From positions 1-57,147 of the forward strand of contig CANRZD010000002.1 in NCBI GenBank assembly GCA_947644325.1: DNA of 57,147 nt, given 5' to 3'. Of the stretch, positions 1,831 to 27,337 are shown piece by piece. This DNA is from an uncultured Clostridia bacterium (GTDB lineage Bacteria; Bacillota; Clostridia; Oscillospirales; Acutalibacteraceae). The notes under the pieces were generated by a model, which ran no database searches, had not been told where the DNA came from, and worked only from the letters and a program-made list of their open reading frames with translations. Every line of letters begins with the position of its first letter. The stretch's first letter is position 1. A program made the position numbers and the translations under genes.

Positions 1831-2370
1831 TCAGGCCTCCAGCTGGCGGGACAGGAACATGGACGCGGCCTTGACGCTTTCGGCCGCTTCGCCGGAGACC
1901 CGGGCCGGGGACTTCTCGCTTTTTAAGAGCATCACCGCCCCCATCACGTCCCCCGAGGACACCACCGGGAATACCGCCAGCGCCGCCGCCGGCGGGTTCT
2001 GAGAGGCCAAGACCGTGCTGTCGGCGCTGCTGATGAAGATGCGCTTGCCCTGCACCAGCTCCTCCAGCTGGGGGGCCAGGGGCTTGTGCAGCAGGTCCTT
2101 CTTGGCGGGGCCCGCCACGGCGATGATCTGCTCGGTGTCGCACACCGCGGCCCCGTGGCCCGTCAGGTGCACCAGGGTCTCGGCGTAGGCCGCCGCCAGC
2201 TGGGACATTTCCCCCACCGGCGAATACTTCTTCAAGATCACCCCGCCCGATACGTCCGTGAAGATTTCCATGGGCATGCCCTCCCGTATCTTCAGGGTGC
2301 GCCGGATCTCCTTGGGGATCACCACCCGGCCCAGGTCGTCGATGCGGCGTACAATGCCAGTTGCTTTCAT
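1831..2370 (-). CDS. spoVT: Stage V sporulation regulator SpoVT
   Basis: AbrB-family transcription regulator that in Bacillus tunes late forespore (sigma-G) genes. The 179 residues match the family length (178 in B. subtilis). Residues 1-52 form the swapped-hairpin DNA-binding domain, with GIVRRIDDLGRVVIPKEIRR and 'GMPMEIFTD'. The rest (about 55-179) is the GAF-like domain. The start chosen is the ATG at 2370, with AAAGGGAG just upstream. A longer in-frame extension to 2553 runs through low-complexity upstream sequence and is not family-like. The gene supports a spore-forming host. A sigma-G-like site lies about 90 nt upstream. Confidence 0.93.
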   Translation of the reverse strand: MKATGIVRRIDDLGRVVIPKEIRRTLKIREGMPMEIFTDVSGGVILKKYSPVGEMSQLAAAYAETLVHLTGHGAAVCDTEQIIAVAGPAKKDLLHKPLAPQLEELVQGKRIFISSADSTVLASQNPPAAALAVFPVVSSGDVMGAVMLLKSEKSPARVSGEAAESVKAASMFLSRQLEA

Positions 2371-2459
2371 ATAAAAAACTCCCTTTCGCACAAAATATTG
2401 CCGGGCAAAGCAGCGCAACCCATCCCAAATGCCCGCCGTTTTGCCGGCTTTTTCCGTCT

Positions 2460-2488
2460 TAGTATTTGCGCCGATTTTTCCATTATTC
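2460..2488 (-). promoter_or_regulatory. Possible sigma-G/sigma-F type promoter of spoVT
   Basis: Read on the minus strand, GAATA (2488-2484), a 17-nt spacer and AATACTA (2466-2460) resemble the Bacillus sigma-G pattern (GHATR, 17-18 nt, CATNHTA) with one mismatch at the first position of the -10. Bacillus spoVT is sigma-G dependent, so the position is sensible, but such short motifs also occur by chance. Confidence 0.4.
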
Positions 2489-2540
2489 CATCCGCCGCCC
2501 TCAGCGCGCCCACAGTTTGCGCCGCAAAAAAAGTTTTTCC

Positions 2541-2568
2541 TTGACGGGAACAAATGGGGTGCTATAAT
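2541..2568 (+). promoter_or_regulatory. Sigma-A promoter of the ABC transporter gene
   Basis: TTGACG (2541-2546), a 16-nt spacer and TATAAT (2563-2568) lie 32 nt upstream of the start codon. It diverges from the spoVT upstream region. Confidence 0.8.
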
Positions 2569-2600
2569 GAATACAAATCCACCGCAAAGGAAGAAACCCC

Positions 2601-4277
2601 ATGAAAATAAAAAAACTGGACCCCGCCCTAAAACGCACCTTCTCCTACCTAAAACCCTTCAAAAAAGAATTCACATTCATCGTCCTGACACTTCTAGTCT
2701 CCACCGCCGTAGGCTTCTTCCAGCCCTTGGTGATCCGTGCCATCACTGACGACGGAATGTTACAACAGGACATGTCCGTAATTGCCCGTTCGGTGCTGGC
2801 GCTGGTGGGGCTGGTGCTGGTCAATCAGGCCATAGAATTGTGGCAGACGCGCGTTTTCGCCGACATACATAACCAGTCCTACTACACCATTTTCCATCAG
2901 GTTTTCGAGAAGCTGCTGCACCTGGAAAAGTCCTATTTCGAAGATAAAAACAACACAGAAATTCTAAGTTTCTTGCAGATGGACGTGTCCCAGGTGTCCT
3001 CCATCACCGACCGCTACACGGTCATGAGCGCCAGCTATATTTTCCGAATCATCAGCGGCCTTGTGGGCCTTTTCGTCATAAGCTGGAAGCTGGCGCTGGT
3101 GGTGCTGGCCATGGTTCCCGTGAAGTTTTTCCTGGTGCGCGGCCTCTCGAAACGCCGGGAAAAGGCCATGGACGAGATGATAGAATCCAGCCGCGACTTC
3201 TCCCGCTGGTTCGGAGACAATCTTAACGGCGTCGATGAAATCAAGCTTTGGAACCTCTTTCAGTGCCGGGAAAAAGTTTTCTCCCAGCGCCAGAAAAACC
3301 TTTTGAAGCTGGAGAAAAAAGGCACCATGATTGACGCCTGGAACATGTTTTGGGAGGTTTTATTGGAGTGGTCTGTGACCATTGTTCTGTACCTTTTGGG
3401 TGGCTGGCTCATCTGTGCCGGTAGTCTGACCATAGGCGCGGTTTTCGCATTTGCCAGCTACTCCGGCTACGTGACGGGGCCTGTTTCGGCGCTTATCAAC
3501 ATCAAAATGTACTTCGCGCGAATTATGCCATCAGCCCGCAGATTGTTCAAATTTTTGGACATGGAAACGGAAAAAGACGATGGCAAAAAGACGGTTTCTA
3601 GCCGCCCGCCGCGCCTGGAATTTCGGGACGTGGCGTTCCGATATGAGGAAAACCGGCCCATTCTGCAGGGCGCAAATTTCACGGTGGAGCCCGGGGAAAA
3701 GGTCGCTATCATCGGCCAAAATGGCAGCGGGAAATCGACGATTCTGAACCTGATTTTGCGGTTTTACCAGCCGGATTCCGGGTTGGTTCTGGCTGATGGG
3801 GAAGATGTAAATTCCCTGTCGCTGGAGGATTACCGCGGCCTGTTTTCCGTGGTCAGCCAGGAGCCTTATTTGTTTTTGGGCGACATTCTGGAGAACACGG
3901 ACCTGACGGGAAATACAACAAACGAACAGCTTCAAGCAGCTTTGCAGGCCAGCGGCGTGGCCGGTTATTTAGAGCGCATGCCTGACGGCGAGAAGACGCA
4001 GATCGGCCGCAATGGGGCGAAGCTTTCCGGCGGCGAAAAGCAGAAATTGGCGGTGGCCCGGGCGCTCTTGAAGGACGCACCGGTGGTGATTCTGGACGAG
4101 GCTACGTCGGGATTCGACGTGGAGTCGGACGCCTACCTGCACGGCATTATTTTGAATGAAATGCGGGAGAAATCGGTGATTATGATCACGCACCATTACG
4201 AGCATTTGGGAGGAATGGATAAGGTTTATCAGTTGGAGGAGGGCGTTTTGCGGGAGGTGGAAGGCCCGGTGAGATAG
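2601..4277 (+). CDS. ABC transporter, fused membrane and ATPase domains (exporter type)
   Basis: Half-transporter of 558 residues, expected to dimerise in the membrane; the substrate is unknown. Residues about 20-310 form the six-helix exporter domain. The ATPase domain shows Walker A GQNGSGKST (372-380), Q-loop Gln420, signature LSGGE (475-479), Walker B PVVILDE (494-500) and H-loop His531, so it looks catalytically complete. The start ATG follows AAAGGAAG. It is a single gene with its own promoter and terminator and no partner beside it, so a homodimer is likely, or a partner lies elsewhere. The 5' part is A- and C-rich and less GC-rich than its neighbours, which may point to transfer. A lipid, peptide or drug exporter cannot be told apart from sequence. 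Confidence 0.92.
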   Translation: MKIKKLDPALKRTFSYLKPFKKEFTFIVLTLLVSTAVGFFQPLVIRAITDDGMLQQDMSVIARSVLALVGLVLVNQAIELWQTRVFADIHNQSYYTIFHQVFEKLLHLEKSYFEDKNNTEILSFLQMDVSQVSSITDRYTVMSASYIFRIISGLVGLFVISWKLALVVLAMVPVKFFLVRGLSKRREKAMDEMIESSRDFSRWFGDNLNGVDEIKLWNLFQCREKVFSQRQKNLLKLEKKGTMIDAWNMFWEVLLEWSVTIVLYLLGGWLICAGSLTIGAVFAFASYSGYVTGPVSALINIKMYFARIMPSARRLFKFLDMETEKDDGKKTVSSRPPRLEFRDVAFRYEENRPILQGANFTVEPGEKVAIIGQNGSGKSTILNLILRFYQPDSGLVLADGEDVNSLSLEDYRGLFSVVSQEPYLFLGDILENTDLTGNTTNEQLQAALQASGVAGYLERMPDGEKTQIGRNGAKLSGGEKQKLAVARALLKDAPVVILDEATSGFDVESDAYLHGIILNEMREKSVIMITHHYEHLGGMDKVYQLEEGVLREVEGPVR

Positions 4278-22645: not shown

Positions 22646-22681
22646 CTGTCCCGGCGTGGTCGTGAAACCATGCCGGGACAG
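22646..22681 (+). terminator. Large 14-bp hairpin ending the hisS-aspS operon
   Basis: CTGTCCCGGCGTGG (22646-22659) pairs with CCATGCCGGGACAG (22668-22681) with a single G-T pair and an 8-nt loop. The following T-run is poor (TACATTTTG). It probably terminates aspS transcripts or protects their 3' end, but could be part of another structured RNA. Confidence 0.6.
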
Positions 22682-22719: not shown

Positions 22720-22735
22720 CCACAATATATGGTAT
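22720..22735 (+). promoter_or_regulatory. NrdR-box-like site before nrdD
   Basis: CCACAATATATGGTAT matches 13 of 16 positions of an NrdR-box pattern written ACACAATATATTGTGT. It abuts the -35 hexamer, a position suited to repression by NrdR. NrdR usually needs two boxes; I see only a weak second candidate (about 22754-22769), so this is tentative. Confidence 0.45.
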
Positions 22736-22763
22736 TGACAGGGAGGGGGAGAACTACTATAAT
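22735..22763 (+). promoter_or_regulatory. Consensus sigma-A promoter of the nrdD operon
   Basis: TTGACA (22735-22740), a 17-nt spacer and TATAAT (22758-22763): a perfect match. A stem GCGCGGC/GCCGCGC (22770-22792) starts at the predicted transcript 5' end and may stabilise the mRNA. Confidence 0.88.
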
Positions 22764-22818: not shown

Positions 22819-25116
22819 ATGCTCAAAAATATTATCAAGCGCAGCGGGGAAAAGGCCCCCTTTGACGCGGCCAAGATACGGGGCGCCATCTTCAAGGCCA
22901 ACGTGCGCATCGCCACGGAGAAGTTTAGCGAGGAGGAGCTGGACCGGCTCACCCAGGAAGTGGTGAAGGAGCTGGAAAAGATGAAGGAGACCCCCACCGT
23001 GGAGCAGACCCAGGACGTGGTGGAGGAAAAGCTCATCGCGGCGGACTACGCCAAGACCGCCAAGGCCTATATCTTGTACCGGGCGGAGCACCAGAAGCTG
23101 CGGGAAATGGATGACGAGCTGGTGAAGATCTACTCGGCGCTGACCTTCGTGCCGGCAGAGGACACGGACTTAAAGCGGGAGAACGCCAACATCAACGCCG
23201 ACACGGCCATGGGCACCATGCTCAAGTACGGCTCGGAGGGGGCCAAGAGCTTCTATGACAAGTACGTGATCCCCCCCCATATCGCCCAGGCGGACGCGGG
23301 CGGGGATATCCATATCCACGACAAGGACTTCTACACCCTGACGGAGACCTGCTGCCAGATCGACCTGATAAAGCTTTTTAAGAACGGCTTCTCTACCGGC
23401 CACGGCTACCTGCGGGAGCCAAACGACATCCGCAGCTACGCGGCCCTGGCCTGCATCGCCATACAGGCCAACCAGAACGAGATGCACGGGGGCCAGAGCG
23501 TGCCCATCTTCGACTACGCCATGGCCCAGGGGGTGGACAAGACCTACCGCAAGGAGTTCTTCAAGGCCCTCATCCAGTTCTTGCAGATACACAAGGGCAT
23601 GCCCCACAGCCACGCCGAGGCCCTGATAAACGCCGCCCGGCGGGAGCTGGGCTCGAAAGTCACCATGAAGAACGTGGAAAGCTACAGCGAGCGGTTCATA
23701 AAGTTCCTGCCCCGGCACCAGAAGGAGAACGGCTACGAGGAGATCATCACCGAAGAGGCCGAGGACGCCTGCGCCTACGCCAGGGAGGCCGCCTGGCGGG
23801 AGACCGACCACGCCACCTATCAGGCCATGGAGGCCCTGGTGCACAACTTAAATACCATGAATTCCCGGGCGGGGGCCCAGGTGCCCTTCTCGTCCTTAAA
23901 TTACGGCACAGATACAAGCGAGCAGGGGCGCATGGTCATACGAAACCTCCTGTTTGCCACCGAGGCCGGCCTGGGGGATGGGGAGACGCCCATCTTCCCG
24001 GTGCAGATCTTCAAGGTGAAGGAGGGCGTAAACTACAACGAGGGCGACCCCAACTACGACCTTTTCAAGCTGGCCATGAAGGTGTCCGCAAAACGGCTGT
24101 TCCCCAATTTCAGCTTTATCGACGCGCCCTTTAATCTGCAGTACTATAAGCCCGGGGACTACGACACGGAAGTGGCCTACATGGGCTGCCGCACCCGCGT
24201 CATGGGCAACACCCACGACCCGGACCACGAGACCACCTGCGGCCGGGGCAACCTGAGCTTTACATCCATCAACCTGCCCCGCATCGGCATAGAGGCGGAA
24301 AAGGACGTGAAGAAGTTCTATGAAATCTTGGATGAGCGCATGGAGCTTGCCGCGGAGCAGCTTCTGCACCGGTTCAAGATACAGTGCAGCAAGAAGGCCT
24401 ACAACTACCCCTTCTTAATGGGCCAGGGGGTGTGGATCGACTCGGAGAAGCTGGGCCGCAACGACTCTGTGGCGGAGGTGTTAAAGCATGGGACCCTTTC
24501 CGTGGGGTTCATCGGCCTGGCCGAGACCCTGAAGGCCCTGACCGGCAAGCACCACGGGGAGGACGAAAAAAGCTACCAGCTGGGCCTTCAGATCATCACC
24601 CACATGCGGGAATACATGGACGGCCTCTCGAAGAAGACGGGGCTCAACTTCACTCTGCTTGCCACCCCCGCCGAGGGCCTTTCCGGGCGGTTTGTGCGCA
24701 TAGACCAGAAGAAGTTCGGGAAGATACCCGGGGTCACGGACCGGGAATACTACACGAACTCCTTCCACATCCCGGTGTACTACCCCATCGGGGCCTTCGA
24801 GAAGATCAAGAAGGAAGCCCCCTTCCACGCCCTCACGAACGCCGGGCACATCAGCTATGTAGAGCTGGACGGGGACATCTGCAAGAACATCGAAGCCTTC
24901 GAGAGCGTCATCCGCTGCATGAAGGAGTCCGGCATCGGCTACGGCTCTGTGAACCACCCGGTGGACCGGGACCCGGTGTGCGGCTACAACGGCATCATCG
25001 ACGACGTGTGCCCCCGCTGCGGCCGCCGGGCCGGAGAGGGCGTGCCCCTGTCGAAGCTGGAGGAGCTGAGAAAGAAATACCACGACGTGCCGGACTATAC
25101 GAGCTTGATACGCTGA
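22819..25116 (+). CDS. nrdD: Class III ribonucleotide reductase large protein lacking the glycyl-radical loop
   Basis: Anaerobic reduction of ribonucleoside triphosphates to deoxy forms. The 765 residues include an N-terminal ATP-cone (about 1-95, KRSGEKAPFDAAKIRGAI) and the NrdD barrel, with 'HDKDFYTLTETCCQIDL' and 'NQNEMHGGQSVP'. Near the end NHPVDRDPVCGYNG and DVCPRCG (Cys721, Cys731, Cys734) look like the zinc site. The protein then ends in 28 unrelated residues. The usual C-terminal RVxGYL...RVKH glycyl-radical segment is absent and is found in a separate gene at 25916. The start is the ATG at 22819 after GAGGAAAGG. Promoter and NrdR-like site lie upstream. Confidence 0.93.
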   Translation: MLKNIIKRSGEKAPFDAAKIRGAIFKANVRIATEKFSEEELDRLTQEVVKELEKMKETPTVEQTQDVVEEKLIAADYAKTAKAYILYRAEHQKLREMDDELVKIYSALTFVPAEDTDLKRENANINADTAMGTMLKYGSEGAKSFYDKYVIPPHIAQADAGGDIHIHDKDFYTLTETCCQIDLIKLFKNGFSTGHGYLREPNDIRSYAALACIAIQANQNEMHGGQSVPIFDYAMAQGVDKTYRKEFFKALIQFLQIHKGMPHSHAEALINAARRELGSKVTMKNVESYSERFIKFLPRHQKENGYEEIITEEAEDACAYAREAAWRETDHATYQAMEALVHNLNTMNSRAGAQVPFSSLNYGTDTSEQGRMVIRNLLFATEAGLGDGETPIFPVQIFKVKEGVNYNEGDPNYDLFKLAMKVSAKRLFPNFSFIDAPFNLQYYKPGDYDTEVAYMGCRTRVMGNTHDPDHETTCGRGNLSFTSINLPRIGIEAEKDVKKFYEILDERMELAAEQLLHRFKIQCSKKAYNYPFLMGQGVWIDSEKLGRNDSVAEVLKHGTLSVGFIGLAETLKALTGKHHGEDEKSYQLGLQIITHMREYMDGLSKKTGLNFTLLATPAEGLSGRFVRIDQKKFGKIPGVTDREYYTNSFHIPVYYPIGAFEKIKKEAPFHALTNAGHISYVELDGDICKNIEAFESVIRCMKESGIGYGSVNHPVDRDPVCGYNGIIDDVCPRCGRRAGEGVPLSKLEELRKKYHDVPDYTSLIR

Positions 25117-25137
25117 TTTTTCGGGGAAGGATGTTAT

Positions 25138-25887
25138 ATGGGAGACACGAAAATTGCCTACAGTGAAAAATTCGGGATCGGCACTTTTAAGCGGGAAATC
25201 TGTGCGGAGCTGGGAGAGGCCTTTTGGAAAGAGCTTACGGAAGGCCTGGAGCTCCCGGACATAGATACCGAGGGCGGCCGCCAATGCCGTAATATGTACC
25301 AGTTCATGGTCCGGCTGGAAGGACGGGCTGAAAAGGAAACAGTCAAGAAAATATTATGCCGGGTGCGCCACGGCCTGCATCCCTCCATGAGCGCTTGGGC
25401 GCGGGAGGAGTTTCTGGCGCTGGGAGATTTGGACGTGTTTTTGAATAAGCATCTGCAAAGCGAGCTGGAGCACTTTACAGAGCTTAACCGCGAAGGGAAG
25501 GATTTCTACGGGCAGGAGATTACCGATGATGTCTTGCAATTCATAAAAGAGAATCCGTCTATGGCGGCGCCTGTCCGAGAAGGGAACAAGCTGCGCTGTA
25601 TGGCATTCCCTTACAGCATGGACGAGTATCTGCATGCCGCCGATGAAAAAATGAAACGGTATCATGCCTGCCACTGCCCCTTCGCAAAGGAATCGATTTT
25701 GTCCGAAAAGGTTGTGCCGGCCGCGCTGTGTAATTGCAGCCTGGGCCATGTGATGAACTTTACGGAAGCCTTTCTGGGCCGGGCCTTGGATGGAAGGGTG
25801 GTTCGTTCCGCGCTGAACGGGGATTTGGCCTGCGAGTATGAAATCGATATACCCGATGACATTATGGAAGAATATGTAAACTGCTAG
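25138..25887 (+). CDS. Uncharacterised Cys-rich protein between the two NrdD parts (DUF6144/V4R-like look)
   Basis: I do not recognise a characterised protein. The 249 residues are mostly helical in look, with cysteine clusters near the C-terminus: HACHCPFAKES, 'AALCNCSLGHVMNF', then 'GDLACEYEIDIP' and a final Cys. This CHCP...CxCS...GD..C pattern resembles uncharacterised families grouped as DUF6144 and the small-molecule-binding V4R fold; that comparison is from memory. Codon use is visibly less GC-rich than nrdD and surE. It lies 21 nt after nrdD and 28 nt before the radical-domain gene. An acquired gene dropped into the operon is the simplest reading; a role in redox or metal handling for the reductase is only a guess. 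Confidence 0.75.
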   Translation: MGDTKIAYSEKFGIGTFKREICAELGEAFWKELTEGLELPDIDTEGGRQCRNMYQFMVRLEGRAEKETVKKILCRVRHGLHPSMSAWAREEFLALGDLDVFLNKHLQSELEHFTELNREGKDFYGQEITDDVLQFIKENPSMAAPVREGNKLRCMAFPYSMDEYLHAADEKMKRYHACHCPFAKESILSEKVVPAALCNCSLGHVMNFTEAFLGRALDGRVVRSALNGDLACEYEIDIPDDIMEEYVNC

Positions 25888-25915
25888 GACAGCCTAATTT
25901 AAGGAGGAATTTCAC

Positions 25916-26092
25916 ATGACAAGCGTAAAAGAGTACAAAGTAGAAGAAAACGAGGTCATCATCGGCGAGGGCCGGGACTTTGAGCGCATCCGCCGCATCA
26001 CCGGCTACCTGGTGGGCACCATCGACCGCTGGAACAACGCCAAGCGCGCCGAGGAGCAGGACCGGGTGAAGCACACCCTGGGAGGGAACTGA
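25916..26092 (+). CDS. Stand-alone glycyl-radical domain of NrdD (58 residues)
   Basis: A 58-residue protein, too short for ordinary ORF cut-offs but with a strong site (AAGGAGGAA) 7 nt before its ATG. Residues 23-53 correspond to the extreme C-terminus of class III reductases. ERIRRITGYLVG matches the glycyl-radical loop (E. coli NrdD RRVCGYLG with radical Gly681), and 'NNAKRAEEQDRVKH' matches the closing 'NAGKQEEVKRRVKH'. Gly30 is therefore the expected radical residue, formed by NrdG. The large NrdD at 22819 lacks this segment, so the two proteins probably assemble. Different start, own ribosome site and an intervening gene exclude a simple frameshift. Confidence 0.85.
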   Translation: MTSVKEYKVEENEVIIGEGRDFERIRRITGYLVGTIDRWNNAKRAEEQDRVKHTLGGN

Positions 26093-26093
26093 G

Positions 26094-26843
26094 TTGCATA
26101 TCCTACTGGTAAACGACGACGGCATAAACGCACCGGGCCTGGGGGCCCTGGCAATGGAGCTCTCGAAAGAGCACAAGATCACCATAAGCGCCCCCACAGA
26201 GGAGCGCAGCGCCGTGGGCCACGGCCTGACCACCCGCCTGCCCCTCTTTGTGGAAAAGCGGCAGGCGCCGGGGGCGGATGCCGCCTACGCGGTCTCCGGC
26301 ACCCCGGCGGACTGCGCCCGGGTGGGCGTGCTGTGTCTGGCAGAAGAGCCCATAGACCTGGTGGTCTCGGGCATCAACAAGGGCCTAAACGTGGCCATGG
26401 ACATGCTCTATTCCGGCACGGTGTCCGCCGCCATGGAGGCGGCTATGCTGGACAAGAAGTCCATAGCGGTCTCCACCCAGTGGGACGGGGACTTTGAGAA
26501 GGCGGCGGGGATATTCGCGAAGCTCCTGGGCCAGCTGGACCTGGAAAGGGACATCGATTTCATGCTCAACGTGAACATCCCCACCCTGCCCGGCCAGGAG
26601 GTAAAGGGTACAAAGTGGGTGCCCGCCGGGCGCGTGCACCTGTGGGCCGACACCTACGAGCACCGGAAGACCCCGGACGGCCGGGACTACTATTGGCTGA
26701 AGAACCTGCAGGACGCCGCCACCCCCGACTTCGGCACGGACACGGACATCGGCTGCGTGGCAAACGGGTATGTGAGCCTGTCGCCCCTGGTCTACGACCT
26801 GACCGACGGCGAGGGCTTCCGGGATAAGGAGTTCGCCCTGTGA
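26094..26843 (+). CDS. surE: 5'-nucleotidase SurE
   Basis: Metal-dependent nucleoside monophosphate phosphatase. The metal site NDDGINAPG is at residues 7-15, followed by 'SAPTEERSAVGHG' and 'VSGINKGLNVAMDMLYSGTV', all typical of SurE. Length 249 is normal. The start is TTG at 26094, 7 nt after GGAGGG, because the conserved 'ILLVNDDG' begins two residues in and no ATG fits. It starts 1 nt after the radical-domain gene and overlaps nrdG by 4 nt, so it belongs to the nucleotide-reduction operon, perhaps trimming nucleotide pools. Confidence 0.94.
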   Translation: MHILLVNDDGINAPGLGALAMELSKEHKITISAPTEERSAVGHGLTTRLPLFVEKRQAPGADAAYAVSGTPADCARVGVLCLAEEPIDLVVSGINKGLNVAMDMLYSGTVSAAMEAAMLDKKSIAVSTQWDGDFEKAAGIFAKLLGQLDLERDIDFMLNVNIPTLPGQEVKGTKWVPAGRVHLWADTYEHRKTPDGRDYYWLKNLQDAATPDFGTDTDIGCVANGYVSLSPLVYDLTDGEGFRDKEFAL

Positions 26844-27337
26844 AGGTGCGGCTGGCGGGGGTCGTGGGGGAGTCTGTTGTAGACGGGCCCGGCATACGCT
26901 ATACGGTGTTCGTGCAGGGGTGCCCCCACCACTGCCCCGGCTGCCACAACCCCCAGACCCACGATTTCGACGGGGGATATGAGGGGGACACGGAGGAGCT
27001 TTTTGAGCAGTTTCGGGTGGACCCCATCTTAAAGGGTATCACCCTGAGCGGCGGCGAGCCCTTCTGCCAGCCGGGGCCTTTGGCGGAGCTTGCCCGGCAG
27101 GTGCACGCCCTGGGTAAGGACGTGGTGGTCTACACCGGCTACACCTACGAGAAGCTTTCGGCCATGGAGGACCCGGAGGTGCGGGCGCTGCTGGCGGAAA
27201 CGGATTTGCTGGTGGACGGCCCCTTTATAGAGGAGGAGAAGGACCTGGAGCTCCCCTTTCGGGGCAGCGCAAACCAGCGCCTCATCTGCATGGAGGCCAC
27301 CCGGCGGGAAGGGCGGCCTGTCCTGCGGGAGGACTGA
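26840..27337 (+). CDS. nrdG: Anaerobic ribonucleotide reductase activase
   Basis: Radical SAM protein that creates the glycyl radical on NrdD. The 165 residues hold the cluster motif CPHHCPGC (Cys-x3-Cys-x2-Cys, about residues 30-37) and 'GITLSGGEPFCQP', the SAM-binding GGE. The start GTG at 26840 overlaps the surE stop as GTGA, implying coupling. A terminator follows 6 nt after the stop. Its target Gly here is predicted to be in the separate 58-residue protein. Confidence 0.96.
   Translation: MKVRLAGVVGESVVDGPGIRYTVFVQGCPHHCPGCHNPQTHDFDGGYEGDTEELFEQFRVDPILKGITLSGGEPFCQPGPLAELARQVHALGKDVVVYTGYTYEKLSAMEDPEVRALLAETDLLVDGPFIEEEKDLELPFRGSANQRLICMEATRREGRPVLRED

Follow-up and report, generated by a model that had tools for sequence, protein, structure and literature searches.

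The question raised by this locus is whether an anaerobic ribonucleotide reductase can be built from two separately encoded chains, the smaller of which carries the radical glycine. The window, which is the whole stretch of DNA analyzed here (57,147 nucleotides; contig CANRZD010000002.1, assembly GCA_947644325.1, of an uncultured Clostridia bacterium in the Acutalibacteraceae), contains an nrdD gene whose product lacks the C-terminal radical-glycine motif of the usual class III NrdD, and the motif sits in a separate open reading frame (ORF) encoding 58 residues. We judge, at a probability of about 0.88, that the enzyme encoded here is a two-polypeptide class III (anaerobic) ribonucleotide reductase. 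The observations behind this reading are the gene anatomy, the distribution of active-site residues over two chains, the co-occurrence of the parts in the sampled genomes, the repeated evolution of the split, the genomic association with nrdG, and a naturally occurring ORF that fuses the domain to NrdG. The genes concerned and their surroundings are as follows.

22735..22763, + strand: sigma-70-like promoter site TTGACA-17-TATAAT, 5′ of nrdD; 12/12 consensus positions, a pattern match and not a test of function.
22819..25116, + strand: truncated nrdD, 765 residues, with ATP-cone, barrel, radical Cys457, and zinc-type Cys, and without the radical glycine; PF03477, PF13597 positions 1-530 of 562, alignment to 8p23.
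25138..25887, + strand: passenger ORF, 249 residues, outside the system; no family match, atypical GC content at third codon positions (GC3), place vacant in the other genus loci read.
25916..26092, + strand: stand-alone glycyl-radical domain of NrdD, 58 residues, radical Gly predicted to be Gly30; PF13597 positions 531-562, alignment to 8p23 residues 708-738, purifying selection.
26094..26843, + strand: surE, 5′/3′-nucleotidase, an operon neighbor in the window's genus; PF01975 and TIGR00087 above cut-off.
26840..27337, + strand: nrdG, radical S-adenosylmethionine (SAM) activase of NrdD; TIGR02491, 137.3 bits against a cut-off of 126.1.

The ORFs stand where the initial annotation had placed them: a 765-residue NrdD that ends 31 residues after its last Cys (C734), a 249-residue gene, and a 58-residue ORF with its own ATG and TTTAAGGAGG upstream (the AAGGAGG of that annotation). 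The nrdD start at 22819 is favored over an in-frame ATG at 22729, which would give 795 residues, because the promoter-like site lies between the two. The two products tile the NRDD model PF13597 (562 positions), NrdD covering positions 1-530 (634 bits) and the 58-residue protein positions 531-562 (33.7 bits; cut-off, 26.2), with the radical Gly in the second part, which bears out the proposal that the radical domain is missing from NrdD and encoded on its own. The small autonomous protein has the complete radical-domain motif (RITGYLVG and RVKH), and the window also holds two class III traits, a barrel body with a radical Cys and the dedicated activase NrdG. These are the only two PF13597 matches in the window genome (1.99 Mb, 136 contigs, 90% complete), and the second full-length nrdD that had been flagged for a search was not found in this assembly. 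nrdG lies in one run of genes with nrdD and the 58-residue ORF, with surE between that ORF and nrdG, and pattern matching found no terminator-like site on the + strand from nrdD to nrdG.

The closest solved structure to the window NrdD is 8p23, the NrdD of Prevotella copri (PMC12662201). The 58-residue protein aligns to residues 708-738 of this structure with RITGYLVGT in register, and since the 8p23 chain is apparently offset by four residues from the published numbering (our own reckoning), Gly30 is equated with Gly711, described in passages of PMC11226230 as the radical site of P. copri NrdD. In the same alignments, Tyr31 and Arg38 correspond to Tyr712 and Arg719, for which these passages describe contacts toward the active-site flap (PMC11226230). 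In the large chain, Cys457 corresponds to the radical Cys416, Asn478 to Asn435 (formate type), and Glu619 to Glu581. Cys178, Cys457, Asn478, Glu619, C721, C731, and C734 were invariant in 48 of 48 aligned NrdDs (the window protein and 47 named relatives picked from 70; 7 of the 48 single-chain). The conserved residues are divided over NrdD and the 58-residue protein, and the two chains therefore jointly hold the full set. The TGY motif was present in every stand-alone domain read (71/71 named and 147/147 viral loci), a universality that is partly built in because the scans searched for RIRRITGY, and the Arg38 position is not universal (Arg in 58 of 71 named and 117 of 147 viral domains). The single-chain NrdDs of P. 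copri and its relatives resemble the window in body, radical-domain sequence, and formate-type Asn and differ in that their radical domain is the C terminus of one chain, as far as the consulted parts of PMC11226230 and PDB 8p23 describe it. On OY725840.1 (L319), a stand-alone domain has degenerated and no longer has the radical glycine (FERLRRIKVYLVG).

Could the locus be decaying, with replication fed by another class of reductase? The window genome was not searched for class I or II reductases, which leaves this explanation some room, but the small gene does not evolve as a relic would. Across its 37-codon core it differs from nine genus relatives at 5 to 15 nucleotides, mostly third positions, and the nonsynonymous rate (dN, 0-0.03) is far under the synonymous rate (dS, 0.17-0.96). 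By these patterns, the 58-residue ORF is a real gene under strong purifying selection. With the invariance of the active-site residues in the 48 NrdDs, and with the consistent pairing of the two parts and its independent recurrence across many families reported below, we regard decay as very improbable.

The co-occurrence of the two parts was read from several genome samples. The first comprised 40 genomes from the genus and order, 25 of them from the window's genus, including the window's own. All 24 genus genomes with an NRDD match encode a split NrdD and a stand-alone domain (in G002 and G014, as read from fragments), and the remaining one, 60% complete (G024), has no NRDD match. The genus loci read usually run nrdD, domain gene (grd), surE, nrdG, and those of other families nrdD, grd, nrdG. 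Truncated NrdD was likewise accompanied by a stand-alone domain in 8 of 8 cases (16 genomes scanned), in 29 of 29 (46 genomes, six of them selected for a longer form of the domain, and one of those six truncated), and in 16 of 16 (32 genomes selected for having the domain), with a few genomes shared between samples. A control sample of 86 Bacillota genomes drawn without our choice, 74 with an NRDD match, yielded six genomes with truncated NrdD (the window genome included), and all six encode a stand-alone domain, two of which score under the Pfam cut-off; three more genomes combine an intact NrdD with a stand-alone domain. Weak or divergent partial matches (G696, G702, G695, G733, G725, G687, G678, and G658) were left out of the truncated count. 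The comparison of relatives that had been suggested thus finds both fused and split forms, truncation standing at 6/86 within the Bacillota, the scope of this prevalence statement. Sequencing or assembly error, which had been raised as an explanation, was rejected because the split is present in many assemblies.

A wider scan sampled 84,980 species, with a single genome per species, and retained the best 80 loci by match to split-type proteins. These comprised 63 loci with truncated NrdD and domain, 9 with fused NrdD, and 8 with a domain and no NrdD in the stretch; the 63/80 is no prevalence, because the loci are the best matches to split-type proteins. Named isolates among them include Scatolibacter rhodanostii P3890, Massiliimalia timonensis, Anaerovibrio slackiae, Anaerovibrio RM50, Oscillospiraceae MH27-2, and Bacterium 1XD42-1, and there are metagenome-assembled genomes labeled Bacilli, Lachnospiraceae, Megamonas, and Desulfovibrio, labels that may be wrong.

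These samples also bear on the idea that the small protein serves solely for repair, the radical glycine normally coming from another protein. The domain does occur beside intact NrdD in other genomes, as a repair part might, but the window genome, at 90% completeness, has no other NRDD radical domain, and no truncated NrdD counted in the 40-, 16-, 46-, and 86-genome samples was without a stand-alone domain. We consider a purely repair role highly improbable here. The initial annotation had offered an enzyme of two polypeptides or a replaceable radical carrier; the comparisons support the first for the window's lineage, where NrdD without the radical Gly was always accompanied by a stand-alone domain in the samples, and elsewhere they reveal gene arrangements that would suit the second (the domain next to an intact NrdD, or by itself on phage contigs).

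Several points weigh against the two-polypeptide reading. Three genomes of the genus (G001, G007, and G018) also carry a full-length NRDD match (that of G018, the one read, is of a distant type); a split enzyme may therefore share its genome with another class III enzyme. G696, from the control sample, has a divergent partial match (profile positions 6-504) without a domain and was excluded from the truncated NrdDs. G086 (L312) and G128 each have a second NrdD without the zinc region and without the radical domain (profile positions 6-502), and these are unaccounted for by the two-chain model. A complete nrdD could sit in the 10% missing from the window genome. Finally, the system is known here from genes alone, its protein, radical, binding, and activity being predicted from them. 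The second NrdD of G086 overlaps nrdG.

Gene spacing addresses a further alternative, that the two pieces end as one chain through translational read-through, frameshifting, or protein trans-splicing. The genes are often adjacent, with gaps from 1 nucleotide, as such joining might favor; against this, the gaps reach 411 nucleotides in the 63 named split loci, and the relative frames of nrdD and domain spread over all three possibilities (27/19/17), which argues for two separately translated chains without read-through. In the window, 799 nucleotides and one whole ORF lie between the parts, and the parts are unlinked in several genomes; NrdD extends only a short way past the zinc motif, which would appear to leave no space for a split intein of the usual size. 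A single final chain is therefore scarcely credible. Open frames of 830 to 890 codons around some domains had suggested in-frame fusion, and the six loci read (L135-L140) proved to have separate ORFs.

The domain is also linked to the activase. nrdG lies downstream in 52 of the 63 named split loci, some of whose stretches stop at contig ends, and in five f135 genomes (L143-L147) the domain is found together with nrdG while nrdD is elsewhere. In two f213 genomes (G908 and G885), a single ORF encodes the domain followed by NrdG (295 and 370 codons from stop to stop), with complete NrdDs encoded separately. This natural fusion argues that the free domain is a substrate of NrdG.

Collectively, these data lead us to infer how the enzyme would be activated, assembled, run, and renewed. 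The large chain, NrdD, would supply the ATP-cone, barrel, radical cysteine, and zinc site, and the small chain the radical glycine. NrdG would place the radical on Gly30 of the small chain, whether free or docked; the loop of the small chain would enter the NrdD barrel, where Gly30 would pass the radical to Cys457 for turnover. A small chain cleaved by oxygen could in principle be replaced by a fresh copy, and oxygen damage would then cost a 58-residue protein rather than a 765-residue enzyme. The amount of the small protein could also let cells or phages set the activity.

Two forms of the stand-alone domain can be distinguished. The short form has mostly 50 to 61 residues, with a GEG-type motif ahead of FERIRRITGYLVGT. 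The longer form, of about 85 to 115 residues, begins with an N-terminal part of its own, about 50 residues long, which matched no family above cut-off in the proteins scanned; a model of this part alone found matches in 10 of 391 genomes of the class. The longer form accompanies an intact NrdD in eight genomes of the 16-genome sample (G242, G132, G262, G194, G055, G119, G172, and G224), in nine of the 46-genome sample (G142, G222, G241, G174, G344, G359, G488, G546, and G588), and, as more distant sequences, in eight of the domain-selected sample: G838, G788, G862, G689, G750, G714, G673 (below the Pfam cut-off), and G814. Its gene is flanked by a complete nrdD and by nrdG in G569, G603, and G488. 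As judged from gene arrangement, the longer form beside an intact NrdD is what would be expected of a spare part. Elsewhere, it is the only radical domain found with a truncated NrdD: in G183, G234, G205, G160, and G091 of the 16-genome sample, in G508 of the 46-genome sample, and in f135, f163, f111, and f180 genomes of the domain-selected sample, one of which (G781, f135) has a complete NrdD of another type in addition. In G071 and G052 (L138 and L139), a second stand-alone domain gene lies about 0.6 to 0.9 kb upstream of the split nrdD, besides the downstream one. A 92-residue gene between nrdD and nrdG of Ilyobacter was considered and is not a radical domain.

The place at which NrdD is cut offers clues to the origin of the split. 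In several longer-form systems, the NrdD tail ends at or just before the radical Gly (G706, EVEFERIHRITE; G508, HFERIPRL; G234, CERIPRIKVE; single-chain relatives read FERIRRITGYLVG at that place), and in others (f111 and f180) NrdD ends earlier. In pyruvate formate-lyase, oxygen cleaves the chain at the radical glycine, as passages in PMC12288474 describe. With NrdD cut at or next to that residue, these genes may be seen as resembling an encoded version of the cleaved enzyme. In short-form systems, the NrdD tail retains ten residues, xGEGVPxEKL, that give a gap-free alignment with the beginning of the small protein, xGEGVxFERI. The mean BLOSUM62 score of this overlap is 17.2, whereas shuffled tails average −8.7 and reach at most −5.6 in 200 shuffles; at the eight other offsets tried, the score is negative. 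These values come from a set of 63 loci (five longer-form) whose relatedness inflates the consistency. The overlap suggests that the nrdD 3′ end was partially duplicated and that the first copy then underwent loss, rather than that the split arose by a clean cut.

A phylogeny of the NrdD core indicates that NrdD switched between the split and fused states repeatedly. The tree comprised 172 of 222 sequences (98 split and 74 fused), after removal of those scoring <400 bits to the window protein, near-copies at ≥93% identity, and five rows missing the trim landmark (L305 and L307, fused; L309, L311, and L312, ending earlier). Split rows are over-represented because sequences were fetched for them. 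With the zinc and radical regions removed (quick search, LG+G4, SH-aLRT support only), the fewest label changes between split and fused number 18, and the well-supported branches force at least 12. In one genus, split L032, L033, and L081 group with fused L070 and L071 (support, 100); split L141 pairs with fused L277 (support, 100), and split L123 with fused L207 (support, 95). The direction of these changes is unfixed by the tree, and re-fusion is possible. Two apparent split NrdDs (L009 and L020) were rejected because they match the whole model with a C-terminal extension, and they fall below the tree score limit.

Other interruptions of nrdD were also seen. In G552 (L309 and L166), the NrdD ORF stops before the zinc site (GYGS), and a 95-residue ORF with zinc site and radical domain lies on another contig, before nrdG; a cobalamin riboswitch lies ahead of the broken nrdD. 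In G350, an apparent NrdD break was dismissed because it falls at contig ends, and in a fused NrdD piece of this genome (L310) the zinc site and the radical domain are separated by a long insertion, suggesting a linker that accepts extra sequence.

The domain is also abundant on viral contigs. Two scans, each retaining the best 80 matches, gave 158 loci on 145 distinct contigs (13 contigs with a locus from each), including near-copies and mostly reaching ≤5 kb on each side. Among the loci listed, 135 have a stand-alone domain without an NrdD ORF in the stretch, 12 a domain with an NrdD lacking it, and 11 a fused NrdD; by distinct contig listed, the numbers are about 125, 9, and 11. When 40 of these contigs (28 to 258 kb, and possibly fragments) were searched whole, each had exactly one NRDD match, the domain (36 of 40 above cut-off). 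Phage hallmarks adjoin the domain in several cases, among them a terminase (L460, 258 kb), a virion structural protein (L409, 238 kb), RecT and RusA (L402), and integrases (L353 and L406), in a test of ten proteins from six contigs in which three proteins, including that of L412, had no match. In some cellular genomes, additional copies occur on elements that also carry DUF4314/DUF3848, D12 methylase, and SpoVG genes (L052 and L053) or near ORFs judged by eye to be recombinase-like and tail-like (L153 and L154). Matches of the small protein on C. difficile plasmids resembled mobile domains at first sight and were set aside, since the two regions opened hold ordinary full nrdD-nrdG genes.

The occurrence of the same detachable part in related bacteria and phages suggests that the spare-part strategy of one other enzyme also serves DNA precursor synthesis. 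We lean, by a modest degree, toward the broader view that NrdD-type radical domains act as mobile spare parts for anaerobic DNA precursor synthesis and that this system is widespread. The duplicated C-terminal domain would first have stood beside an intact NrdD, and many lineages would then have lost NrdD's own domain, some right at the radical glycine where oxygen cuts, so that the cell encodes a "damaged" enzyme and depends on an exchangeable part. Phages, including those represented by contigs of 200 to 258 kb, would carry the part only, to keep or restart the host reductase.

Phage T4 encodes the protein Y06I. Passages in PMC8683613 describe Y06I as the phage version of the pyruvate formate-lyase spare part, and this makes it the counterpart of the phage-borne NrdD-type domains. 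In the same source, GrcA (YfiD) is an autonomous glycyl radical cofactor of pyruvate formate-lyase that is activated by the enzyme's radical SAM activase and restores the oxygen-cleaved enzyme (PMC8683613). The window protein is likewise a small separate protein with a radical domain resembling that of the big enzyme, but it matches PF13597 only (E values up to 0.01) and not the pyruvate formate-lyase radical domain, and it replaces the enzyme's domain with no intact enzyme to back up, the backup arrangement being found with the longer form elsewhere. NrdJa-NrdJb of Pseudomonas, a split class II reductase with both chains required, similarly derives from two genes of one operon and is called, in the 2015 text as consulted, the only split reductase found in a nonviral organism (PMC4520616). 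It differs in class and in that its small chain serves disulfide exchange (PMC4520616); the window body is NRDD, and its small chain would store the radical. Phage reductase genes are interrupted by introns, inteins, and homing endonucleases, with nrdD split in six phages and NrdA in Aeh1, according to passages in PMC3653736. There too nrdD or nrdA extends over several ORFs, but mobile introns or endonucleases are the cause (PMC3653736), whereas here the cut lies at the radical-domain boundary and recurs independently.

In the open-access literature, the scope of our search (preprints and most subscription journals lie outside it), no description of an NrdD-type stand-alone radical domain was found. 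Databases do contain short proteins that bear the name anaerobic reductase. The gap matters for enzymology. Pyruvate formate-lyase is given in the consulted parts of PMC8683613 as the sole validated case, with two spare parts, and spare parts of other glycyl radical enzymes are posed there as a possibility and an open question. The loci described here would provide a large natural set for ribonucleotide reductase, with two-chain enzymes in named isolates. With a detachable domain, NrdG activation, docking, radical transfer, and oxygen repair could be examined one at a time, which a single chain does not permit. For annotation, a truncated nrdD with a near or distant ORF of 50 to 100 codons should probably be read as half of a functional pair rather than as a pseudogene, and for phages of anaerobes the domain may be a cheap means to support deoxynucleoside triphosphate supply.

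The 249-residue ORF that separates the two genes in the window matched no Pfam, NCBIfam, or PHROGs family above cut-off, endonuclease families included. Its GC3 is 64%, versus 88% in nrdD, and homologs occur in only two further of 29 genus genomes (L316 and L317; 69% and 63% identity), at other places, with no match to nrdD, surE, nrdG, or the radical domain within 1.5 kb on either side. Among the genus loci read, it stands between nrdD and the radical domain only in the window. On its odd composition and sparse homologs, we take it to be a local passenger. Insertion of an intron or endonuclease was rejected as the cause of the split, since an Rfam search of the window gave no match and this gene, absent there in the other genus loci read, matches no endonuclease family.

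A different architecture appears in G006 (L056, positions 2241-3443), where an ORF of 401 codons has, by eye, a PHP-domain-like start and an end resembling the zinc and radical domains, with YQRIVGYLV; an activase-like ORF follows, and integrase-like and dUTPase-like ORFs (by eye) lie in the same stretch. Just 5′ of the promoter-like site of the window nrdD, an inverted repeat of 15 pairs with a T-rich stretch after it (22646-22681) may be the terminator of the preceding gene or a regulator site.

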